Below, piece after piece: positions 2,812-53,925 of a DNA stretch of 64,000 bases (its first letter is position 1; each line of letters opens with the position of its first letter). A model generated the notes under the pieces. It searched no databases, was not told the origin of the DNA, and was given only the letters and a program-made list of their open reading frames with translations. Source of the DNA: Humisphaera borealis (GTDB lineage: Bacteria > Planctomycetota > Phycisphaerae > Tepidisphaerales > Tepidisphaeraceae). A program made the position numbers and the translations under genes. Where the stretch lies: contig NZ_CP063458.1 of assembly GCF_015169395.1 (NCBI RefSeq), positions 6,262,001-6,326,000 of the forward strand. The letters are read 5' to 3'.

Positions 2812-4326
2812 ATGCAGTTAGGTCAGTCTTTATCCATGCGCCCGGAGATGCGTCAGCTGCTGACGCCCCGGATGATTCAGAGCATGGAGATCCTGCAGCT
2901 CCCCCTGGCGCTGCTTGAAGAACGCATCGAACAGGAGTTGCAGAGCAATCCTGTCCTGGAAATGAGCGAAGGGGAGACCGACTTCGCCGCGATTGCCGAG
3001 CAGTCCGACATCCCCCAGCGCGACGACCGGTCCGAAGGGGAACACGCCCTGGTCGTCCGTGACGACAACGGCCACGCCGCCGACTTCGAACGCCTCGAAC
3101 GCATCAGCGACTACTTCGAAAACGAAGAGTTCAACACCAACGGCTCCAACTTCCGCCAGCAGGGCTCGTTCGACGGCGAGCGCGACAAGAAGATGGACGC
3201 GATGGCGAACACCGCCGCCCGCGGTGTCACGCTGCAGGAACACCTGATGGGGCAGTGGGCGTTCGTAGAATGTTCGCCCGAAGTCCGCCAGGCCGGCGAA
3301 GCCCTGCTGAACTACATCGACCCCGAAGGCTACATCCGTACCCCCTTCGAGACCGTCCGCGCCGAGAGCAAATCCGCCCCGACCCTAGAATCCCTTACCG
3401 AAGCGCTCGGGCTCATTCAGACCTTGGAGCCCTCCGGCGTGGGTGCTCGCACCCTCACCGAATGCCTGCTCATCCAGCTCCGGGCCCTCGAAGACGACGA
3501 AGACCTCTCCGAAGGCCATGACTTCGAGCTCGAAAAGTCCCTGATCCGCGATCACTTCAACGACCTGAAGATGAACCGCTACCCGCAGATCAGCAAGCGG
3601 CTCGGCCGGAGCATCGACGACATCAAGTCCGCCGTCCGGCGGCTCGGCCGGCTTCACCCCCACCCCGGCAAGCAGATCGGCGGCGACGACGCCCCGGCGA
3701 TCATCCCCGACGCCGTCATCTACTGGGACGACGAAACCGGCCGATACGAAATCAAGATGGCCCGCGACCCTTCCGAGAACATGTCGATCTCGGCGATGTA
3801 CCGCAAGTGGCTCAAGGACCGCACGAAAGACAAGAAGACCCGCGAGTTCCTGGCCAACAACGTCCGCAACGCCCGCTGGCTGATCGAAAGCATCGAGCAG
3901 CGCAAGAGCACGATTCACCGCGTGATCCGCGCCGTGGTCGATGCCCAGCGCGAGTTCTTCGAAAAGGGCTTCGAGTTCCTCCGCCCGCTGCCGATGATCG
4001 GCGTCGCCGACCAGCTGGGCATCCACGTCGCCACCGTCAGCCGGGCCGTCAGCGAAAAATGGATCCAGACGCCTCGCGGCGTGTTCCCCCTTCGGCGGTT
4101 CTTCTCGCAGGGCACCCAAAGCGCCGACGGCGAAGACATGGCCTGGGGCGCGGTGCAGGAGAAGCTCAAGGCGATCATCTCCAACGAAGACCGGCAGAAC
4201 CCGCTCAACGACGACGAGATCGTCGAGAAGCTCAAATCCCAGGGCATCGATATCGCCCGCCGCACCGTCGCCAAGTATCGCAAGATTCTCAACATCCCGA
4301 CGTCGCGGCAGCGGCGGGAGTATTGA
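2812..4326 (+). CDS. rpoN: RNA polymerase sigma-54 factor RpoN
   Basis: The 504-residue protein has the full sigma-54 plan. The Gln/Leu-rich region I (residues 1-50) begins MQLGQSLSMRPEMRQLLTPRMIQSMEIL and contacts the AAA+ activator. An acidic region II follows, then the core-binding domain and the helix-turn-helix region. The C-terminus carries the RpoN box ARRTVAKYRK, which reads the -24 promoter element. Length is close to the family norm (about 480-500). Sigma-54 directs transcription that needs enhancer-binding activators; none is encoded here. The ATG at 2812 follows a weak ribosome site. The next genes on this strand, a rhodanese and a secreted protein, start 84 and 601 bases downstream. 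Confidence 0.97.
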   Translation: MQLGQSLSMRPEMRQLLTPRMIQSMEILQLPLALLEERIEQELQSNPVLEMSEGETDFAAIAEQSDIPQRDDRSEGEHALVVRDDNGHAADFERLERISDYFENEEFNTNGSNFRQQGSFDGERDKKMDAMANTAARGVTLQEHLMGQWAFVECSPEVRQAGEALLNYIDPEGYIRTPFETVRAESKSAPTLESLTEALGLIQTLEPSGVGARTLTECLLIQLRALEDDEDLSEGHDFELEKSLIRDHFNDLKMNRYPQISKRLGRSIDDIKSAVRRLGRLHPHPGKQIGGDDAPAIIPDAVIYWDDETGRYEIKMARDPSENMSISAMYRKWLKDRTKDKKTREFLANNVRNARWLIESIEQRKSTIHRVIRAVVDAQREFFEKGFEFLRPLPMIGVADQLGIHVATVSRAVSEKWIQTPRGVFPLRRFFSQGTQSADGEDMAWGAVQEKLKAIISNEDRQNPLNDDEIVEKLKSQGIDIARRTVAKYRKILNIPTSRQRREY

Positions 4327-4410
4327 GCGAGGCGGGCAGGCGACGGCAACCGACTGTTTGCCTGCCGACGACATGCCACCGAACGCAAGTCTTGCCGAAG
4401 AGGAACATCG

Positions 4411-4854
4411 ATGCGCTGCGCTACTCCCCTGTGTTTCGTACTCCTGACGCTGACCTGTTTCACCGCGCCGGCGTGGTCGGCGGACGAGAAGAAGCCCGAA
4501 CCGTCGGCGGTGACGAAGTCCTCGCCGGATCAATTCGACAAGGCCCGCCACGAGAAAGACGCCGTCGTGATTGACGTCAGGTCGCCGGAGGAGTTTGCGG
4601 CCGGTCGCGTGCCGGGGGCGGTGAACATTCCCGTCACCGGTGCCGGTTCTGAAGCGTTCGACAAGCGAGTCGCCGAGGTGGCCAAGGACAAGACGCCGCT
4701 GGTCTATTGCCGCAGCGGCAATCGAAGCGCCAAGGCCGTCGAGAAGCTCAAAGCGATGGGCTTTCGATCGATCATCGAGATGCCCGGCGGCTGGGTCGCC
4801 TGGTCGCAGGCGGGTAAGGACGTCGAGAAGGGTCCGGTTAAGCCGGCGAAGTAG
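4411..4854 (+). CDS. Exported rhodanese-domain protein
   Basis: This 147-residue protein has a Sec signal peptide (MRCATPLCFVLLTLTCFTAPAWSA) and then one rhodanese domain. The active-site loop is CRSGNRS, with the persulfide-forming Cys and a typical single-domain loop, preceded by IDVRSPEEFAAGRVPGAVNIP. It resembles PspE-type periplasmic sulfurtransferases, which move sulfane sulfur from thiosulfate to an acceptor. The natural substrate is unknown. AGAGGAA precedes the ATG by six bases. The gene may be read through from rpoN. Confidence 0.92.
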   Translation: MRCATPLCFVLLTLTCFTAPAWSADEKKPEPSAVTKSSPDQFDKARHEKDAVVIDVRSPEEFAAGRVPGAVNIPVTGAGSEAFDKRVAEVAKDKTPLVYCRSGNRSAKAVEKLKAMGFRSIIEMPGGWVAWSQAGKDVEKGPVKPAK

Positions 4855-4927
4855 TCGAATTCCCTTCGAAACCCGTTCCCGCCGCTTTGTCTTGGACGTC
4901 GTGCCCATCGCAGTGGAGAATGAAGCC

Positions 4928-6190
4928 ATGAGCCGATCAGCACGAGTCGCCGTATTGCTGCTTGCCGTCGCGCCGGCGTGGGGCGCGCTGGCGCTTGACC
5001 CGACGCTGCCGCAGCCGGGCCGGGCCAAGCCGTCGCCCGCTTCGGGCACCGGAACCGGCGCGTCCGCGGTTGCCGCGCCTGCCGTCGCGGACAAGACACC
5101 GGTCGAAGCCACGCCCGCCGACCGTAAACCCGTTCCTGACCCGGCGGCGCTCGCCGACGCGCAGAAGCTGGTAGACCAGGTCTACAAAGACGAACTGGCC
5201 GCCGCCAAAACGCCGGACCAGAAGAAACAGCTCGCGGCGAAGTTCCGGCAGCTGGCGGCCGAGTCGCAGCCCGCCGGCAGGTATGTGCTGCTGGCCCGCG
5301 CCCGCGAAGTCGCCGCCGACGCCGGCGACGCCGACACCTCCCTCGGCGCCGTCGCCGACCTGGAACGGTCGTTCGATCTCGACGGCGGCGCGATGGAACT
5401 CGACGCCGTCGTCCGGCTGCAACGCGTATTGCGATCGCCGGAATCGCTCAAGGCTGTTACACGCTATCTGCTCGGGTCGGCCAACCAGGCGGTCGTCGGC
5501 GACCGGTTCGAATCGGCACGCAAACTGATCGACCAGGCGGTCCTGCTGTCGGCGCGGGTGAATGACCCGGCGCTGGCGAAGCTCGTCGCCGCGCGGGCCA
5601 AGGAAATCCGCGAGATCGAAGCCGCGTTCGCGGCGGCCAAACCCGCGATCGAGGCCGCCGCTAAACAAGCCGCCGACCCCGCGCAAAGCCTGGCGGCGGG
5701 GCGGTACCGGGCGTTGTACAAGGGAGAATTCCCGGCAGGCCTGCCGCTGCTGGCGGCGGGAGCCGACGACCCGCTGAAAGACGTCGCCGTTAAAGAGCTG
5801 GCCGGCGTCAGCGGCGCCGAGCAGCAGGACGCGATCGCCGATGCCTGGTACGGCGTCGCCGAGAAACTCACCGGTGTCGCGAAGAACCACGCCCTTCTGC
5901 ACGCTGCCGGCTTCTACGCACAAGCCGCACCTTCGCTGGCGGGCCTGCAGCAGGCCAAGGCGGTCAAGCGGGCCAAGGAAGCCGAACCACTCGCGGCGAT
6001 GTACGTCGGCAGGCCGGCGTCGGCAGGTGGCACACCAGCCGGCACGCCCGCGGTCGCAGTCAAACCGCCAGACGTCACGTCGCAACCCGTCAAGCCCACG
6101 ACGCCGGGCACCACGGACAACCCCCGGCGGCGAACATCAATCTTCCCGGCAAGTTCGTCCGCATCTGGAAGACGCCGGAGGTCTGGATGA
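4928..6190 (+). CDS. Secreted planctomycete-type protein, 5' part of a frameshifted gene
   Basis: The start is the ATG of MSRSARVAVLLLAVAPAWGALA, a clear signal peptide, with GGAGAATGAAGCC in front. The mature part is Ala-rich and helical. It contains a stretch I recognise from many planctomycete secreted proteins (GRYRALYKGEFPAGLPLLAAGADDPLKDVAVKEL, then DAWYGVAEKLTGVAKNHALLHAAGFYAQA), whose function is unknown. After residue 398 the frame runs into an Arg/Ser-rich tail (RRRTSIFPASSSASGRRRR) that looks out of frame. The neighbouring frame reads PPAANINLPGKFVRIWKTPEVW and joins the next entry. One missing C in the CCCCC run at 6121-6125 explains this. It is either a real mutation or a sequencing error. 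Confidence 0.75.
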   Translation: MSRSARVAVLLLAVAPAWGALALDPTLPQPGRAKPSPASGTGTGASAVAAPAVADKTPVEATPADRKPVPDPAALADAQKLVDQVYKDELAAAKTPDQKKQLAAKFRQLAAESQPAGRYVLLARAREVAADAGDADTSLGAVADLERSFDLDGGAMELDAVVRLQRVLRSPESLKAVTRYLLGSANQAVVGDRFESARKLIDQAVLLSARVNDPALAKLVAARAKEIREIEAAFAAAKPAIEAAAKQAADPAQSLAAGRYRALYKGEFPAGLPLLAAGADDPLKDVAVKELAGVSGAEQQDAIADAWYGVAEKLTGVAKNHALLHAAGFYAQAAPSLAGLQQAKAVKRAKEAEPLAAMYVGRPASAGGTPAGTPAVAVKPPDVTSQPVKPTTPGTTDNPRRRTSIFPASSSASGRRRRSG

Positions 6191-46448: not shown

Positions 46449-49400
46449 CTAGTCCAGCAGCTCGCTGTCGTCCTCTCCAGAGTCGAGATCATCGCTTCCC
46501 GACACGAACGACGGGACAACGCGGATTGCAACGGGGTTCGTCAGCCCAGACGAACTGGGCTTTCCTTCCGGCCGCTTGGTCTGCCCGGGAGGCAGCGTGC
46601 CTGCGGTTGTCGGATCGGTCGCCACCGGCGATGAACTGACGTCGGAGAACGAAGACGCCGGTAAGGCAACCGCCGGGGCCACGATGCCCTGGGCGTTGGT
46701 GTTGCCAGCGGCAAGTGCGTACGACGAAGCCGCCGCCTGGCTGCCAGAGGTCCGGGTCGCGGCTGCGGCGTAGCGGTAGCTGCGGTCGGTGCTGTTGTCG
46801 ACGATCCAGAGATCTCCGCTGCCGGCAAGGTCAAGCGCCAGCCCGGTCGGCTTGCCGCCCCCTCCTGTCAGGGTCCAGTTGCCGAGCAAAGCGCCGGCGA
46901 CGGTGTACTTGTAGACCTGGTCGCTCTTGGACCCATCGTTGACGATCCAGAGGCTCGTTCCGTCGCCAACAATATCCTTCGGCGTGCTGTTGCCGCTGGC
47001 GAGCGCGAAGCTGCTGGCGGCCGTCTGGCTGCCAGACGTCCGCGAGGCCGCACCCGAATAGAAGTAAACCCGGTCGGCTCGAGCATCGACGATCCAGAGG
47101 TCTGTCCCGTTGGTCGCGATGCCTTCAATCGTGGAGGTTGTTGAAATCGTACCGGCGGTCCATGACCCGACCACCGCACCGGCCGCATCGTAGACGTAGA
47201 CGGTACGGTTCTTGTCCACAACCCATATCCGGTCGCCGGCCGCGTTGATCGCCGCCCCGCGCGGTGCGGTGTTGCCCACGCTCAGGGACGTGCTGCCATT
47301 CTGCGTACCGTTGGCGGTGTACTTGAATCGCTGGTCCACCGTGCCGTCATCGAGGACGAAGAACCGGGTCGCCGCTACCGGCGGCGGCGGTGGAGGCGGT
47401 GGAAGCGTGTCATTGTCCTGATTGGTGAATGCGACATCAGCCGCATCCAGACCGTTGTAGGACAAGTCGGCGCTGACCGCCGAGCCGAGCACCACCGTGT
47501 AGGACACGTTCCCGTCGACCGTGGCGTCGTCGACGCCGGTGACGACGACCGACTGCGGCGTGCTCCAGTTGAGCGACGTGAAGGTGAGCGTTGTCGGGGC
47601 GACAACACCCTCGGCGGTGTTGCTCGAGCTGACGGCAATTACCACGTCGGCCGCCGGGGCAGACGCCAGTGCGACCGTGAAACTGGCCGACCCGCCTGCC
47701 TCGGTTGTTGTCGCGGACGGCGTCGGCGCGGTGACCAGGATGCCCGCCGCAGCAGTCACGGTGAGATTGCTGACCGTCGACGTGTTGAGGAGCGTTGTCG
47801 AGTTGCTGGTCCCGGCGATGCCGGCGAGCGTGGAACCGGTCAGCGCAACGGTTGCGCTGCCAATCGTGGTCCAGGCGATCCCGTCCGACGAATAGGCTCC
47901 GGTAATGGTGCTCCCGCTGCGGACCAGGCGCACCCACCTGGGAGCAGTGCCGGTGACAGTCGGAACGCTTGTGGTCGATCCGCCGGCCGAGGTTCGGTAC
48001 GAGAACCCGATGGTCGTCGGTGTAACGTAGATGAAGACATTGGCCGAGTTGGCGGCGGCGGACTGGCGAATCATCACGCCCACCTTGGCACCGGCGGCGG
48101 TGTTCTCCACGGAATCCACGCGGGCGCGGATTTCACCATCACCCGTGATTGACTGGGAGGTGAACCGGAATGAATCGCTCGTTCCCGCGATGTCGGAACC
48201 GCTGCTGACCAGCTTGTAAACGCCGGCCGTCAGATCGGTTGTGCCGGGCCCGTACGCCGTGCCGATATCCTGCGACGTCCAGGGTGCCGCCGGCGGCGTG
48301 GCGCTGGGCGCGGCGGCGAACTTGATGCCGCCGTTGAGGCTCTGCGTGTAGCTCGTGGTCCCGTAAACGCGGTAATAGTATTCGCCGGCCGAGGCTACCG
48401 TCGTGTCGATGTAGGTGGTGGTGCCCGCAGCCACCGTGGCCAGCGACGCGAAGGTCGTGCCATTGGTCGACCGCTCAATCCGATAGCCGGTCTCGTTGGC
48501 AATGTCGGTCCAGTTGATCGCGATGCTGCCGACGGCAACCGCGCCGAGCGTCGGGTTGACCGCGGCAAGCCGGGGCGACACCGAGACCACCGCAGACGTC
48601 ACACCGTCACCCAGCGCGCTGGTCGGGGTTACGCGGTAGCTGTAGACGTTGGCGGCGGACAGGCCGCTGTCGGTGTAACTGGGCACGTTCGCTCCGACCG
48701 TTGCGAGCGTGGCAAACGTCACCCCGTCAGTCGACCGCTCGATGCGATACCCCGTCTCGCCCGTCGTCTCGCGCCAGTTCAACACGAGCTGGGTGGCGTT
48801 GGGCTTGGTAATCGAAAAGCTGGTGACGGCACTGGGTCGATTGACCTCGCTTATCACCAGCGACGGTACCGATCGGCCGGTGCCGTCGCTTGCGCTGACC
48901 CGGTAGAAGTATCGCTGCGAGCCGGCGAGGCTCGCGTCGGTGTAGGTCGTGCCGGCGGGTGCGCCGACCTGGGCAAAGGTTACACCGTCGTCCGATCGTT
49001 CCACTACGTAACTCGCGGCGCCTGCGACGGCGTCCCACGTCAGCGTGAGACCCGTTCCGCCGGCCAATACCAACGACGGATTCGATGGCGCCGGCAGGGC
49101 GTTATAGACGGGCGTCGCCGCGCCTAAAGCGCCGGTGACGCTCACATTGTCAAACTGCCCCACGTTCATCGCGTGGTTATTCGCCGACGCCGTGGCAAGT
49201 CCGATCGTGACTGTTCCTGCCATGCTCACGCTAGCCGTGCCGAGCTGCGTCCAGGTCACTCCGTCGGTTGACGTGAAGCCGGTAAAGGTATTGCCGACAC
49301 GCTGGAGCTTGACCCATCCCGGCGAGAATGCCCCGGCAGCCCCAGATACGGTCGTCGTCCCGCCGCCAGTGGAAGCGCGGGAGTAGAACCGCGCGCCGCT

Positions 49401-50867
49401 GCTGTAGGTCTTGACGATCGAAACCTCGCGGGCGTTGGCGGCGGCGCTCTCACGGATCGTGACGCCGGCAAGTGCGCCGGCGGCGGTGCCGTCGACGTTG
49501 GCAACCCGGGCAACGATCGTGCCGTCGCCAGTGAGGGTCTGATAGGCGTACTGCAGGCCGTCGGACGTGCCGGTGATCCCCGCCCCGGTGCCGATCAGGC
49601 TGAACGTGCCCGTCGCCCCGTCGTGCACCGAGTAGCCCGAGACGCCGGTGCCCACATCGGTCGACTTCCAGCCGGACGGCAGCGCGCTGACGGACATGAA
49701 GTACCGCCCGACATCGCCGTAGTTCTGGTGACTCGAAACGACGGCATAGTAGGTGCCGGTCGTGAGCGGCATCGTGATCTGCTGCACATTGTTCACGCCA
49801 TCGGCGGTCGCCAGCAGTTCGCCTCCGGCGGTGAAGACCGACAGCTTCAGGTCTGCACCGGATGGGGCGTCAGGGGCGGCCGAAAGGGCATAGGTACCGT
49901 CGGATGAGACAACAAACGAGAACGCATCCGCGTCGGTCAGTCGTTCGATGATGCCGCTGGTCCACTGGGCCGCGCCGCTGACGGGCAACGCCGTCGCCGT
50001 GGCGATGGTGTTGCCGAAGTCGTCGGCCCGCATGCCGTCGCCGCCAACCGCCTGGTACGGCTTGATCTTGTTCGCGATCACGGCGATGTCGTCCTGCAAT
50101 GTGGTGACACCCGACGCCGTGCTGTTGTGCCCGAGGATGAACTTATGGATGGTGCCGCTGTAGTCCACGCCCATGATCGAGCCGTGAAGCGGATCGGTCG
50201 CGCCGGCGTACTCGGCAGTCAGCGTGCCCCACTGATCCCAGGTCGCCTGGTGCTGCAGGCCGAAGTTATGGCCGATCTCGTGTGCCAGGCCCGACACGCG
50301 GGTCCGAGCGTCGCCGCTCTGGTTCCACGATTCCGGGGTCGTGTTCGGGAAGACGTTCACATAGCTGTAGCCACCGCTGATGTTGTTGCCGACCGCGAGC
50401 CACGCCTTGGGCGTTCCCGAAGCCGGTTGCACCGTCGTCACGTTGATGTCGAACATCGCGAAGTAGCTCGACATCTCCCGCCATGCTTCAAAAATGGTCC
50501 GCTGCTCGGCGACATTGAAGGTCGTGGCATCGGCATCTTCGCTGTACGGCGACACCGTCGCGACGTAGGGGTTGGATCCGCTGGCATCGCCGTCGAAATC
50601 GAGGTAGAGCGCGGTCGGCGCTGACGAGAGACTGCTTAGCACCGGCATGCCGTTGGCGAGCGTGGAGTAGCTGGGCGTGCCGGCAGGCGTGGCGCCGGTC
50701 GTTTCGCCGGGCGGCTGGCTCTGCACACTCGAAGCCGCCGGATCATCGGTGAAGAAGTCCACGACGAGTGCCGAGTGCGTGGCGCACATCATCAAACGGC
50801 TCTCCATCGGCTCGATGGGTGCTATCGCTCGGAAAAGCCGGTGGCGACCTGCGGTCCGCTTCTTCAT
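46449..50867 (-). CDS. Giant secreted zinc metalloprotease with FN3, Calx-beta-like and propeller repeats
   Basis: The 1472-residue protein starts with a basic tail and PIEPMESRLMM, a LEPR-XLL-like tag. The catalytic domain carries HEIGHNFGLQH, with His196, Glu197, His200 and His206, and a Met-turn IMGVDYS (Met232), so a metzincin is likely. A pre-peptidase-like beta domain follows (to about 395). Two concanavalin-like modules (about 400-590 and 870-1040) flank three FN3 domains. A Calx-beta-like unit (about 1045-1150) and NHL-like strand repeats (RTSGSQxAASS twice) close the molecule. It lies divergently from the 51280 gene. GAGGAGAACATC precedes the ATG. Confidence 0.85.
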   Translation of the reverse strand: MKKRTAGRHRLFRAIAPIEPMESRLMMCATHSALVVDFFTDDPAASSVQSQPPGETTGATPAGTPSYSTLANGMPVLSSLSSAPTALYLDFDGDASGSNPYVATVSPYSEDADATTFNVAEQRTIFEAWREMSSYFAMFDINVTTVQPASGTPKAWLAVGNNISGGYSYVNVFPNTTPESWNQSGDARTRVSGLAHEIGHNFGLQHQATWDQWGTLTAEYAGATDPLHGSIMGVDYSGTIHKFILGHNSTASGVTTLQDDIAVIANKIKPYQAVGGDGMRADDFGNTIATATALPVSGAAQWTSGIIERLTDADAFSFVVSSDGTYALSAAPDAPSGADLKLSVFTAGGELLATADGVNNVQQITMPLTTGTYYAVVSSHQNYGDVGRYFMSVSALPSGWKSTDVGTGVSGYSVHDGATGTFSLIGTGAGITGTSDGLQYAYQTLTGDGTIVARVANVDGTAAGALAGVTIRESAAANAREVSIVKTYSSGARFYSRASTGGGTTTVSGAAGAFSPGWVKLQRVGNTFTGFTSTDGVTWTQLGTASVSMAGTVTIGLATASANNHAMNVGQFDNVSVTGALGAATPVYNALPAPSNPSLVLAGGTGLTLTWDAVAGAASYVVERSDDGVTFAQVGAPAGTTYTDASLAGSQRYFYRVSASDGTGRSVPSLVISEVNRPSAVTSFSITKPNATQLVLNWRETTGETGYRIERSTDGVTFATLATVGANVPSYTDSGLSAANVYSYRVTPTSALGDGVTSAVVSVSPRLAAVNPTLGAVAVGSIAINWTDIANETGYRIERSTNGTTFASLATVAAGTTTYIDTTVASAGEYYYRVYGTTSYTQSLNGGIKFAAAPSATPPAAPWTSQDIGTAYGPGTTDLTAGVYKLVSSGSDIAGTSDSFRFTSQSITGDGEIRARVDSVENTAAGAKVGVMIRQSAAANSANVFIYVTPTTIGFSYRTSAGGSTTSVPTVTGTAPRWVRLVRSGSTITGAYSSDGIAWTTIGSATVALTGSTLAGIAGTSNSTTLLNTSTVSNLTVTAAAGILVTAPTPSATTTEAGGSASFTVALASAPAADVVIAVSSSNTAEGVVAPTTLTFTSLNWSTPQSVVVTGVDDATVDGNVSYTVVLGSAVSADLSYNGLDAADVAFTNQDNDTLPPPPPPPPVAATRFFVLDDGTVDQRFKYTANGTQNGSTSLSVGNTAPRGAAINAAGDRIWVVDKNRTVYVYDAAGAVVGSWTAGTISTTSTIEGIATNGTDLWIVDARADRVYFYSGAASRTSGSQTAASSFALASGNSTPKDIVGDGTSLWIVNDGSKSDQVYKYTVAGALLGNWTLTGGGGKPTGLALDLAGSGDLWIVDNSTDRSYRYAAAATRTSGSQAAASSYALAAGNTNAQGIVAPAVALPASSFSDVSSSPVATDPTTAGTLPPGQTKRPEGKPSSSGLTNPVAIRVVPSFVSGSDDLDSGEDDSELLD

Positions 50868-51279
50868 GATGTTCTCCTCGTTCGCTCAAAACCAAACAGA
50901 TCCGTCAGACTGATCGTCCGCGATGTTGCCGCGGCATAGACGTTGATCGCGAGAAACGCGATCCAGACGTTCGAGAATCAGGAGACGGCACAAAACGACG
51001 TGAATAAGGCTCGGTCGAAAGCTACACCCGAGGCACGGCAAAACACCTCTCTTCGCCGTGCAATCGACCGATACAACTCTGCCTCCGCGTACAGAACTCT
51101 AAGCGGACTGGACGGGCAGTCAAGATATTTCGTACGCCAGCGACAACGAATCGAAAAAGCCGAATGGGGTCTCCCGGCGTCAAGGACACCCGGATTTGAA
51201 GATCGGGGTAAGCCCGATCCTGCTTTGCCGCACGATCGAGTAGCCTGCGAGAGCGGGGCAGGCGTTAGAAGGAGTCGAC
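50868..51279. other. Divergent intergenic region
   Basis: This 412-base stretch separates the metalloprotease gene from the transglutaminase-7TM gene. It contains the ribosome site of each at its ends. I see no repeat and no convincing promoter; an open frame on the plus strand from 50943 lacks coding character. Confidence 0.35.
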
Positions 51280-52848
51280 TTGAGCTTACGAGCAGTGACG
51301 CGTTGGGTGGCGGTGATCCTGGTGTTGATCGGCACGGCGCTGATAGCGCTGCGCCGGCAGGCCCGCAACGAAGCGCAGGCCGTGCCCGGGGACACGCTTT
51401 GGCGAGTCACTTACAAGGCAGCATTCCAGGCGACGCATCCGGGCGCTCGCCTTCGAGTCGCGTTGCCGTCAGACACGAACTTTGCAAAGGTCTTCCACGA
51501 AGACATCCTGTATTCAGGCCTGTCGGCGGGGCGAATGCGGTCGTCGCGGGGGCTGGCGCGCGAATTCTCGCTCGTCGCCGGTCGTGTCGGCGAGCACACG
51601 CTGACGGCACGATTCGATGTACACGTCAGCCCCACGCCGCAGTGGTCGCCACGCGAACCCGACGTCCCGAAGACCCAGGCCGACCGTGACCTGTACCTGA
51701 AGCCCGGCGGCATGTTCCCGACTACAGACCCCTCGGTGCGAGACGCGATCGCGCGTATGCCGACGCGACCCGGCTTGAGCATCGCAAGGTCTGTCTTCGA
51801 CTTCTGCAGTCAGTCGATCGAGGACGAGACGGAGGGAGCGAGCGACGTCGTTACGGTCCTGAGAACCGGAACGGGTTCCGATGTGGGGTGTGCCCGTTTG
51901 ATGGTCACCCTCTGCCGGGCGCTGAACATCCCCGCCCGTATCGTGACCGGGTTCAAGATCGAGGCCGCCGATCATTTCGCCGTCCATACCTGGGCCGAAG
52001 CGCTCGAAGGGGACAAATGGGTTCCTTACGACCCTGCCGGCGGCTTCGCGGCAAAGCTTCCGCCCAACATCGTGCCCGTCCGGCGTGACGGAATTGACGT
52101 GGTCAGCGGAACGGAGATCTCCTCGCTCGACGTGCGATTCGAAGTCAAACGGCTCCCACCCGGCCCCGGCGCAATGCGATACGGCCATGGCAAGCCGTCG
52201 GCGATTCTCGACCTGGCAAGGCTTCCCCTGGAGATGCATGAGCCCTTGCAGATCATCCTGCTCATGCCGCTAGGGGCGCTGGTGACGGGAATATTCCGGA
52301 CGATCGTCGGCATTCGAACATTCGGTACGTTCACGCCGACACTGCTGGCCTTGAGCTTCGTTTACGCCGAGTGGTCCACCGGGCTGCTGACATTCGTCAT
52401 CGTGCTGACGCTGGGGCTGACCAGCCGAACCTTGCTGGACCGACTCAAACTGCTGCTGGTTCCAAGACTCGGCGCGATGCTCACGCTGGTCGTGCTGATG
52501 ATCGTTTTCACCGTGTCGGTGCTCGACTACTTCAACCTCACCCCCAGCGCCCAGGCCGTGATCCTGCCGATGGTCATCCTGACGATGACCGTCGAGCGGT
52601 TTTACCTGACCAGCGAGGAAGACAGCATGATCTTTGCGTTCAGGCTGCTGGGCGGAACGGTCGTCGTCGGCGTCTGCTGCTACCTGGTGCTCCGCTGGGA
52701 ACGCATGGGCCAGTTCGTGCTGTCGTACCCCGAAGTACACCTGTACACGATCGCCGCGATGGTGCTGCTGGGGCGGTTTTCGGGGTATCGCCTGACTGAG
52801 TTGTGGCGATTCCGCGACCTGGTCGAATCGAAGAAAGGGGAGGCGTAA
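51280..52848 (+). CDS. Transglutaminase-like domain fused to 7 membrane helices (UUP1/7TM type)
   Basis: The TTG at 51280 has AAGGAG six bases upstream; the product has 522 residues. One N-terminal helix anchors an external transglutaminase-like domain (about 35-300), followed by about seven membrane segments (about 322-505). Database entries of this family are often called inactive transglutaminase fused to 7TM. Here the Cys-His-Asp triad looks intact: GSDVGCARLMVTL (Cys204), AVHTWAEALEGD (His236) and VPYDPAGG (Asp251). The stop overlaps the start of the next gene (TAATG), so it is translated together with an ATP-grasp ligase. Confidence 0.85.
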   Translation: MSLRAVTRWVAVILVLIGTALIALRRQARNEAQAVPGDTLWRVTYKAAFQATHPGARLRVALPSDTNFAKVFHEDILYSGLSAGRMRSSRGLAREFSLVAGRVGEHTLTARFDVHVSPTPQWSPREPDVPKTQADRDLYLKPGGMFPTTDPSVRDAIARMPTRPGLSIARSVFDFCSQSIEDETEGASDVVTVLRTGTGSDVGCARLMVTLCRALNIPARIVTGFKIEAADHFAVHTWAEALEGDKWVPYDPAGGFAAKLPPNIVPVRRDGIDVVSGTEISSLDVRFEVKRLPPGPGAMRYGHGKPSAILDLARLPLEMHEPLQIILLMPLGALVTGIFRTIVGIRTFGTFTPTLLALSFVYAEWSTGLLTFVIVLTLGLTSRTLLDRLKLLLVPRLGAMLTLVVLMIVFTVSVLDYFNLTPSAQAVILPMVILTMTVERFYLTSEEDSMIFAFRLLGGTVVVGVCCYLVLRWERMGQFVLSYPEVHLYTIAAMVLLGRFSGYRLTELWRFRDLVESKKGEA

Positions 52849-53813
52849 TGCTGTCGCGACTACTGCGCTTCCCCCGGCCCCGCGATCTGCGGGCCCTTGG
52901 CATTCTCGGCATGAACCAGCGCAACGCCGAGTTCGTGCTGCCGGGCAATCCGCGCGCAAATTACCCGCGCGTCGACGACAAGGTGCAGACCAAGTTGATC
53001 TGCGAGAAGCATGGCATTCCCGTGCCGCAGACCTATGCGGTCATCCATTGGATGGGCGACATCCGTAAGTTCGGCCAGCTCGTCGGCGATCGGCGGGATT
53101 TCGTCATCAAGCCGTCGCGAGGGGCAGAGGGACGGGGCATCATCGTCGTCGTCGATCGCCGGGACGATATCTTCATCACCGCCGGAGGCACGGAGCTGAC
53201 GACCGAGGACCTGCGGTATCACCTGGAGAACGCGCTGTCGGGCCTGTATTCGCTCGGGGGCCAGCCCGACAAGGTGATCGTCGAGCAGCGCATCGTCCGC
53301 CATGACGTGTTCGACACCATCGCCGTCGGTGGCACGCCCGATGTGCGGATCATCCTCTATCGCCGCATCCCCGTGATGGCGATGGTCCGGCTCCCGACCA
53401 GGGCGTCGCGCGGCAAGGCGAACCTGCACCAGGGGGCGGTCGCGGCGGCGGTCGATCTGGCAACGGGTATCACGTTCGGCGGCGTGTGCGAAAACCGGGC
53501 CGTCACGGTCCATCCCGACACCAAAGTCGCGATCGCCGGCGTTCAGCTTCCGCAGTGGCACGAGCTGATGATCGCGTCCATGCGCCTGGCCGACGGGCTG
53601 GAGATGGAATACGTCGGCGTAGACTTCGTTCTCGATGCCAACCTCGGCCCCGTCGTGCTCGAAGCCAACGCCCGCCCGGGCCTGGCGATCCAGATCGCCA
53701 ATCGGCACGGCTTGCTGAGCAGGCTCCGGTTTATCGAAGCCGAGAAAATCGGGATGCCCGATATCGAGGCCCGGATGCGCTGGTGCAGCGACTGCCGAGC
53801 ATCGCGAATGTGA
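52848..53813 (+). CDS. RimK-like ATP-grasp ligase (alpha-L-glutamate ligase-like)
   Basis: The ATG overlaps the stop of the preceding gene by one base (TAATG) and gives 321 residues. ATP-grasp elements are DFVIKPSRGAEGRGIIVV (nucleotide-binding loop), VIVEQRIVRH, PDVRIILYRRIPVMAMVRLPT and GPVVLEANARPGLAIQIANRHGL (metal-binding Glu and Asn). The family forms amide bonds between an acyl phosphate and an amine. Pairs of this gene with transglutaminase-7TM genes have been noted before in comparative work on amidoligases; the substrate is unknown. Stop at 53813 is 13 bases before a palindromic repeat. Confidence 0.88.
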   Translation: MLSRLLRFPRPRDLRALGILGMNQRNAEFVLPGNPRANYPRVDDKVQTKLICEKHGIPVPQTYAVIHWMGDIRKFGQLVGDRRDFVIKPSRGAEGRGIIVVVDRRDDIFITAGGTELTTEDLRYHLENALSGLYSLGGQPDKVIVEQRIVRHDVFDTIAVGGTPDVRIILYRRIPVMAMVRLPTRASRGKANLHQGAVAAAVDLATGITFGGVCENRAVTVHPDTKVAIAGVQLPQWHELMIASMRLADGLEMEYVGVDFVLDANLGPVVLEANARPGLAIQIANRHGLLSRLRFIEAEKIGMPDIEARMRWCSDCRASRM

Positions 53814-53826
53814 CTGCGCAGTTGCC

Positions 53827-53925
53827 GTAGGGTCCGCCTTGGCGGACCAAAACGCGAAGCCGCGCGGCGAAATCGGGCAGGGAAAAGCGGTAGCGAAAAG
53901 GGGCGTCCGCCAAGGCGGACCCTAC
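53827..53925. repeat. Paired inverted palindromes, GTAGGGTCCGCC family (second copy)
   Basis: Arms 53827-53847 and 53905-53925 are perfect inverted copies (21 of 21). They share the sequence of the pair at 474-539, more than 53 kb away. The inner spacer differs between the copies. Confidence 0.8.

Follow-up and report, generated by a model that had tools for sequence, protein, structure and literature searches.

The window analysed here is a stretch of 64,000 nucleotides from the genome of Humisphaera borealis (7.19 Mb, a single contig), and it encodes two adjacent genes on the forward strand. The first (51280-52848) starts with TTG and codes for an RloB-like protein of 522 residues that matches the Pfam profiles Transglut_core (60.5 bits, cut-off 23) and 7TM_transglut (186 bits, cut-off 25). 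The second (52848-53813) codes for an RloC-like ATP-grasp ligase of 321 residues that matches ATPgrasp_ST (PF14397, 263.7 bits) and TIGR02291 (356.8 bits, cut-off 314.2). A purine-rich ribosome-binding site precedes each start, with a Shine-Dalgarno-like AGGAG (51270-51274) before the TTG. The stop codon of the first gene (TAA, 52846-52848) and the start codon of the second (ATG, 52848-52850) share one base, giving TAATG at 52846-52850 with AAGGGGAGG directly 5' of it. Both the gene pair and this overlap, which had been reported in the initial annotation, are thus real. The genome has no other 7TM-transglutaminase gene. Scans for promoters and terminators returned no more sites than were found in shuffled sequences, and searches against phage families gave no match.

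The 522-residue protein opens with an N-terminal transmembrane helix (residues 3-31) and a beta-sandwich (39-116), followed by a periplasmic transglutaminase-fold domain (about 130-275) and a 7TM domain (317-521). Its AF2 model, built from 70 sequences, has a mean pLDDT of 88.5 and reaches 96-97 around residues 191-220 (an earlier model, built from four sequences, was poor, with a pLDDT of 54). The best match among solved structures is the transglutaminase-like protease 3isr (Z 21.1 over residues 35-295), which confirms the transglutaminase fold and is also the only PDB entry that matches the protein by sequence. The fold is shared with the periplasmic TgpA (6g49, Z 8.6) as well. In the model, the catalytic helix spans residues 201-214. 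The Cys of transglutaminases normally stands at the start of this helix, which here is residue 201.

Cys204, His236 and Asp251 had been described as an intact catalytic triad. All three residues are present, encoded by TGT (51889-51891), CAT (51985-51987) and GAC (52030-52032), and a profile alignment puts His236 and Asp251 in register with their catalytic counterparts in active enzymes. This part of the description stands; the part that concerns the cysteine does not. As reference we took, from the same bacterial class, 17 transglutaminase-like proteins of the active type, one of them encoded in the same genome (L222: GVCQDFTHLMIGLARALRIPAR). Their profile, 'GdCseyavlfialcRAagiPAR', lies without gaps over 'GSDVGCARLMVTLCRALNIPAR', which places the catalytic Cys on Asp201 (GAT, 51880-51882), at the start of the helix, and Cys204 at the Cys+3 position. 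The distance from the catalytic Cys to the xPAR motif is exactly 15 residues in all 17 active-type enzymes, and that of Cys204 is 12; every gap-free alignment leaves Cys204 three residues out of register. The sequence alignment with 3isr gives the same picture: its Cys falls upstream of Cys204, at the canonical place, where the window protein has Asp instead. We are highly confident that Cys204 is not the catalytic Cys. Because it sits three positions off the true catalytic site, the transglutaminase of the window is almost certainly inactive, as the name of its family says. In the model, Cys204 lies one turn inward on the same helix, where it may have an unconventional role.

It is correspondingly very improbable that an active cysteine peptidase or transferase (Cys204-His236-Asp251) acts with the ligase in a peptide-tag system. 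The Transglut_core match is well over the Pfam cut-off and two of the three residues are where such an enzyme would need them, but the third is not, and relatives with 48-53% identity have Arg in the column of Cys204 and Pro, Ala or Ser at the true site. At the level of sequence and model, an active enzyme of this kind is already refuted. Both observations that the initial annotation had named as refuting were made: a position of Cys204 outside the active site, and close relatives that have the pair and no triad. This corrects a tempting misannotation: Cys204 provides no argument for activity in the transglutaminase-7TM family.

The relatives were found with an alignment-based scan (a single-sequence scan of named genomes gave no match). 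They place the window protein in a clade of Planctomycetota and Verrucomicrobiota (support 100/99), where its nearest relatives are the proteins of 48-53% identity, mostly from Verrucomicrobiota MAGs. All members of the clade have an adjacent ATP-grasp gene, and their true catalytic column holds Pro, Ala, Ser, Thr, Val, Lys or Glu, i.e., close relatives with the same gene pair are devoid of the triad. Across 124 family members, Cys occupies this catalytic column in four cases only; elsewhere it is Ala, Pro, Asp, Ser, Thr, Glu or another residue. An identical transglutaminase ORF occurs in L043 and L164, which come from a genome of the window's class and a Phycisphaerae MAG. The column of Cys204 is occupied in the clade by Arg, Lys or Gln, save in the window protein and in L045, which has a Cys there and no catalytic His. 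We considered whether Cys204 could be the reversion of this Arg/Lys column to a catalytic Cys, and rejected it because the spacing to xPAR indicates that the column is not catalytic.

The Arg codons of the relatives are of the CGN type, and the TGT of the window is one step away from CGT. Judged only by the nesting of the sequences and the number of changes, the Cys arose twice on the tree, once in the window protein and once in L045. In the best reading, Cys204 is a private change, made at a site that was already without catalytic function. It could also be a recent substitution fixed by selection, giving the dead cleft a new role in this species (redox switch, disulfide, metal or acyl site). 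The dominance of a basic residue (Arg/Lys) in the column, the two separate changes and the one or two bases that separate TGT from CGC or CGT are in line with this history, but a single CGT-to-TGT step is cheap and does not require selection, the His is absent from L045, and we did not find the transglutaminase-7TM gene in another genome of the species or genus, where the residue might be seen to be retained. We regard selection on Cys204 as improbable.

7TM_transglut, a Pfam family broader than RloB, is present in 14 of the 294 genomes sampled from the window's phylum and in 34 of the 289 sampled from that of L030 (a Verrucomicrobia MAG). None of the other genomes sampled from the window's GTDB family yielded a 7TM-transglutaminase relative. 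Many of the relatives are MAGs, for which the absence of a gene is soft evidence.

The ATP-grasp ligase has kept its conserved residues intact (Lys45, Lys88, Glu146, Arg181, Asn192, Asp259, Glu272, Asn274), as well as essentially all those for which 124 homologues show a conservation of at least 95%. Profile and conserved Lys, Asp, Glu and Asn identify it as RimK-related. Its conserved residues are 95-99% identical across the family (n = 124), in contrast to the variable catalytic column of the transglutaminase. The two genes are adjacent and on the same strand in 124/124 loci, and in 114 of these they overlap or are at most 30 bases apart (88 that can overlap and 26 within 30 bases; spacing was counted from the earliest plausible start, and 88 is an upper bound). 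Together with the TAATG overlap, this systematic association bears out the suggestion in the initial annotation that the two products are coupled.

The gene group was reportedly first described by Iyer et al. in 2009. In P. aeruginosa, rloB and rloC are encoded in the rlo operon with rloA, the gene of a secreted retropepsin-like protease whose cleavage of polyglutamate was shown in vitro (PMC12239564). Deletion of rloB or rloC suppresses the loss of RloA, rescuing the osmotic defect and, partly, the others, and 96% of the RloB hits are in Proteobacteria (PMC12239564). The disruption of an inactive transglutaminase-7TM gene in Shewanella leads to the overproduction of membrane vesicles (PMC12096838), and peptide binding has been put forward as a function of inactive transglutaminase domains (PMC3482391). 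Osmotic tolerance, biofilm and susceptibility to antibiotics are influenced by the RloB/RloC system, and a role in hypo-osmotic tolerance, biofilm and cell shape is characteristic of rlo.

The window pair resembles the rlo operon in that the same two architectures are adjacent and co-oriented, with a dead transglutaminase site (Asp201 in place of the catalytic Cys of a 7TM_transglut protein) and an intact RimK-related ATP-grasp. It differs in that no secreted retropepsin-like RloA (PF05618) was found beside the pair or elsewhere in the one-contig genome. Furthermore, the 7TM protein scores 159.2 bits with the NCBIfam model of RloB (NF052267), whose cut-off is 900, and is by that model a relative and not an orthologue; its clade, described above, is also distinct. 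We call the pair RloB/RloC-like, and not rlo, because the core is common but PF05618 is missing and the RloB cut-off is far off. It is as an RloB/RloC-like module that it belongs to rlo, a recently named (2025) bacterial envelope-stress system. The comparison with RimK/RimB is looser: the ligase is related to RimK, but it is of another family (ATPgrasp_ST), has a membrane partner and comes with no RimB-type protease.

A sporadic pair that has no protease and was not found elsewhere in the sampled family could be a decaying or idle acquisition with no current role. The lack of relatives in the other sampled genomes of the GTDB family and of an RloA or C25 (see below) partner would fit. Yet both frames are intact, with good ribosome-binding sites and coupling, the residues of the ligase are all conserved, and the same pair, likewise without a protease, persists in the closest relatives, which are Verrucomicrobiota; this makes an idle acquisition unlikely. 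We think instead that the pair is probably a protease-less relative of RloB/RloC of the PVC type (Planctomycetota/Verrucomicrobiota), in which the membrane protein binds, senses or moves a peptide that the ligase has made. Our confidence in this function is much lower than our confidence that Cys204 is not catalytic. A peptide-tag or surface-modification system had been suggested in the initial annotation, and peptide modification is also our best guess, given the invariant pairing of the genes, the match to the rlo operon and the cleavage of polyglutamate by RloA (PMC12239564).

In such a system, a cytoplasmic-type ATP-grasp ligase, predicted to be translationally coupled to an inner-membrane protein with seven transmembrane helices, would build a short peptide or peptide tag in the cytoplasm (in the rlo/rim paradigm, polyglutamate). 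The membrane-spanning 7TM part might transport this peptide or relay a signal about it. In the periplasm, the dead cleft of the transglutaminase might bind the peptide or its acceptor, with no cutting or transfer. The output would be envelope or osmotic homeostasis. Removal of the product would be either unnecessary in this genome or ensured by another enzyme, because our searches of it returned neither of the dedicated hydrolases, RloA and the C25 of sister lineages. Some of these steps are more conjectural than others. A role in polyglutamate metabolism would be drawn by analogy from the in vitro activity of RloA, a protein that this genome lacks. That the 7TM part transports anything is a guess, whose sole structural hint is a weak match to an Rnf subunit (Z 7.6). 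It is speculation, too, that an acidic ligand would be well served by the conserved Arg/Lys that sister proteins have one helical turn inward.

The genes associated with the pair vary between lineages. In nine Planctomycetota/Verrucomicrobiota relatives of the clade, the pair is adjoined by the gene of a C25 (gingipain-type) protein of 710-910 residues: L039, L040 (48-1385), L041 (4440-6935), L042 (truncated), L043 (4411-6918), L044 (2466-5207), L046 (9349-11475), L165 (9181-11562, reverse strand) and L198 (1546-3888). Gly-His and Gln-Ser-Cys are invariant in these proteins. RloA-type genes are mostly absent from the genomes of the relatives that carry C25 (a divergent one is present together with the C25 gene in L046; L038, which is not one of the nine, has another), and the C25 peptidase possibly replaces the retropepsin RloA. 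No C25 gene of this kind was found in the genome of the window or in its nearest relatives. Homologous genes for AstE/AspA-type zinc hydrolases lie near the pair in L045 (4652-5629, forward strand) and L046 (3899-4930, reverse strand), which are otherwise distant members of the clade.

A separate clade (support 100/100), mostly of Bacteroidota, has Cys at the true catalytic position. Its members come from genomes labelled Bacteroidota or Chlorobiota, or related to them, from one Schekmanbacteria MAG and from L169, which is of the window's class. The full Cys-His-Asp triad, with the motif ASCNGK or ASCGGK, is found in six of the nine members (L052, L067, L085, L252, L253, L254); the others have lost the Asp (L169), the Cys (L255) or the region of the Cys (L256). 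PF05618 is absent from four genomes of this intact-triad clade, an M14/AstE-AspA-like peptidase lies beside the pair in L052 and L067, and a putative outer-membrane barrel protein recurs at these loci. Since this clade keeps the triad, the term 'inactive' is right for the branch of the window and not for the whole 7TM-transglutaminase family. These intact triads and the C25 neighbours are more novel than the window pair itself. In L256, the transglutaminase-7TM and ATP-grasp genes are fused in a single ORF of 756 residues (3036-5303, forward strand).

We tentatively propose, with somewhat more doubt than belief, that RloB/RloC might be the constant part of a modular system for peptide ligation in the envelope, with a hydrolase that can be exchanged: RloA in proteobacteria, C25 in planctomycetes and their relatives, M14/AstE-AspA-like zinc peptidases elsewhere, or the transglutaminase itself where its triad survives. 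The lineage of the window would then run without RloA, C25 or an intact transglutaminase. The lineages that swap hydrolases and the intact-triad clade provide natural contrasts that could reveal the substrate.

The other neighbours of the window pair include a gene on the reverse strand (46449-50867) for a secreted-looking protein of 1472 residues, with the metzincin motif HEIGHNFGLQH, fn3 and DUF1349 domains and a proline-rich stretch (its Reprolysin matches are below the Pfam cut-offs). The initial annotation had pointed out this giant metalloprotease beside the pair. The motif is there, but the gene was not seen beside the pair in relatives and does not belong to the conserved components of the system; as it is also divergently transcribed, we rejected it as a partner. 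Directly 3' of the ATP-grasp gene, a palindromic 19-mer, AGGGTCCGCCTTGGCGGAC, occurs as an inverted pair (53829-53847 on the forward strand and 53905-53923 on the reverse strand), and another such pair lies at 477-495 and 518-536. With at most one mismatch, the 19-mer matches 140 times on the forward and 131 times on the reverse strand across the genome (none for the control read backwards), and it looks like a repeat of the REP/BIME type.
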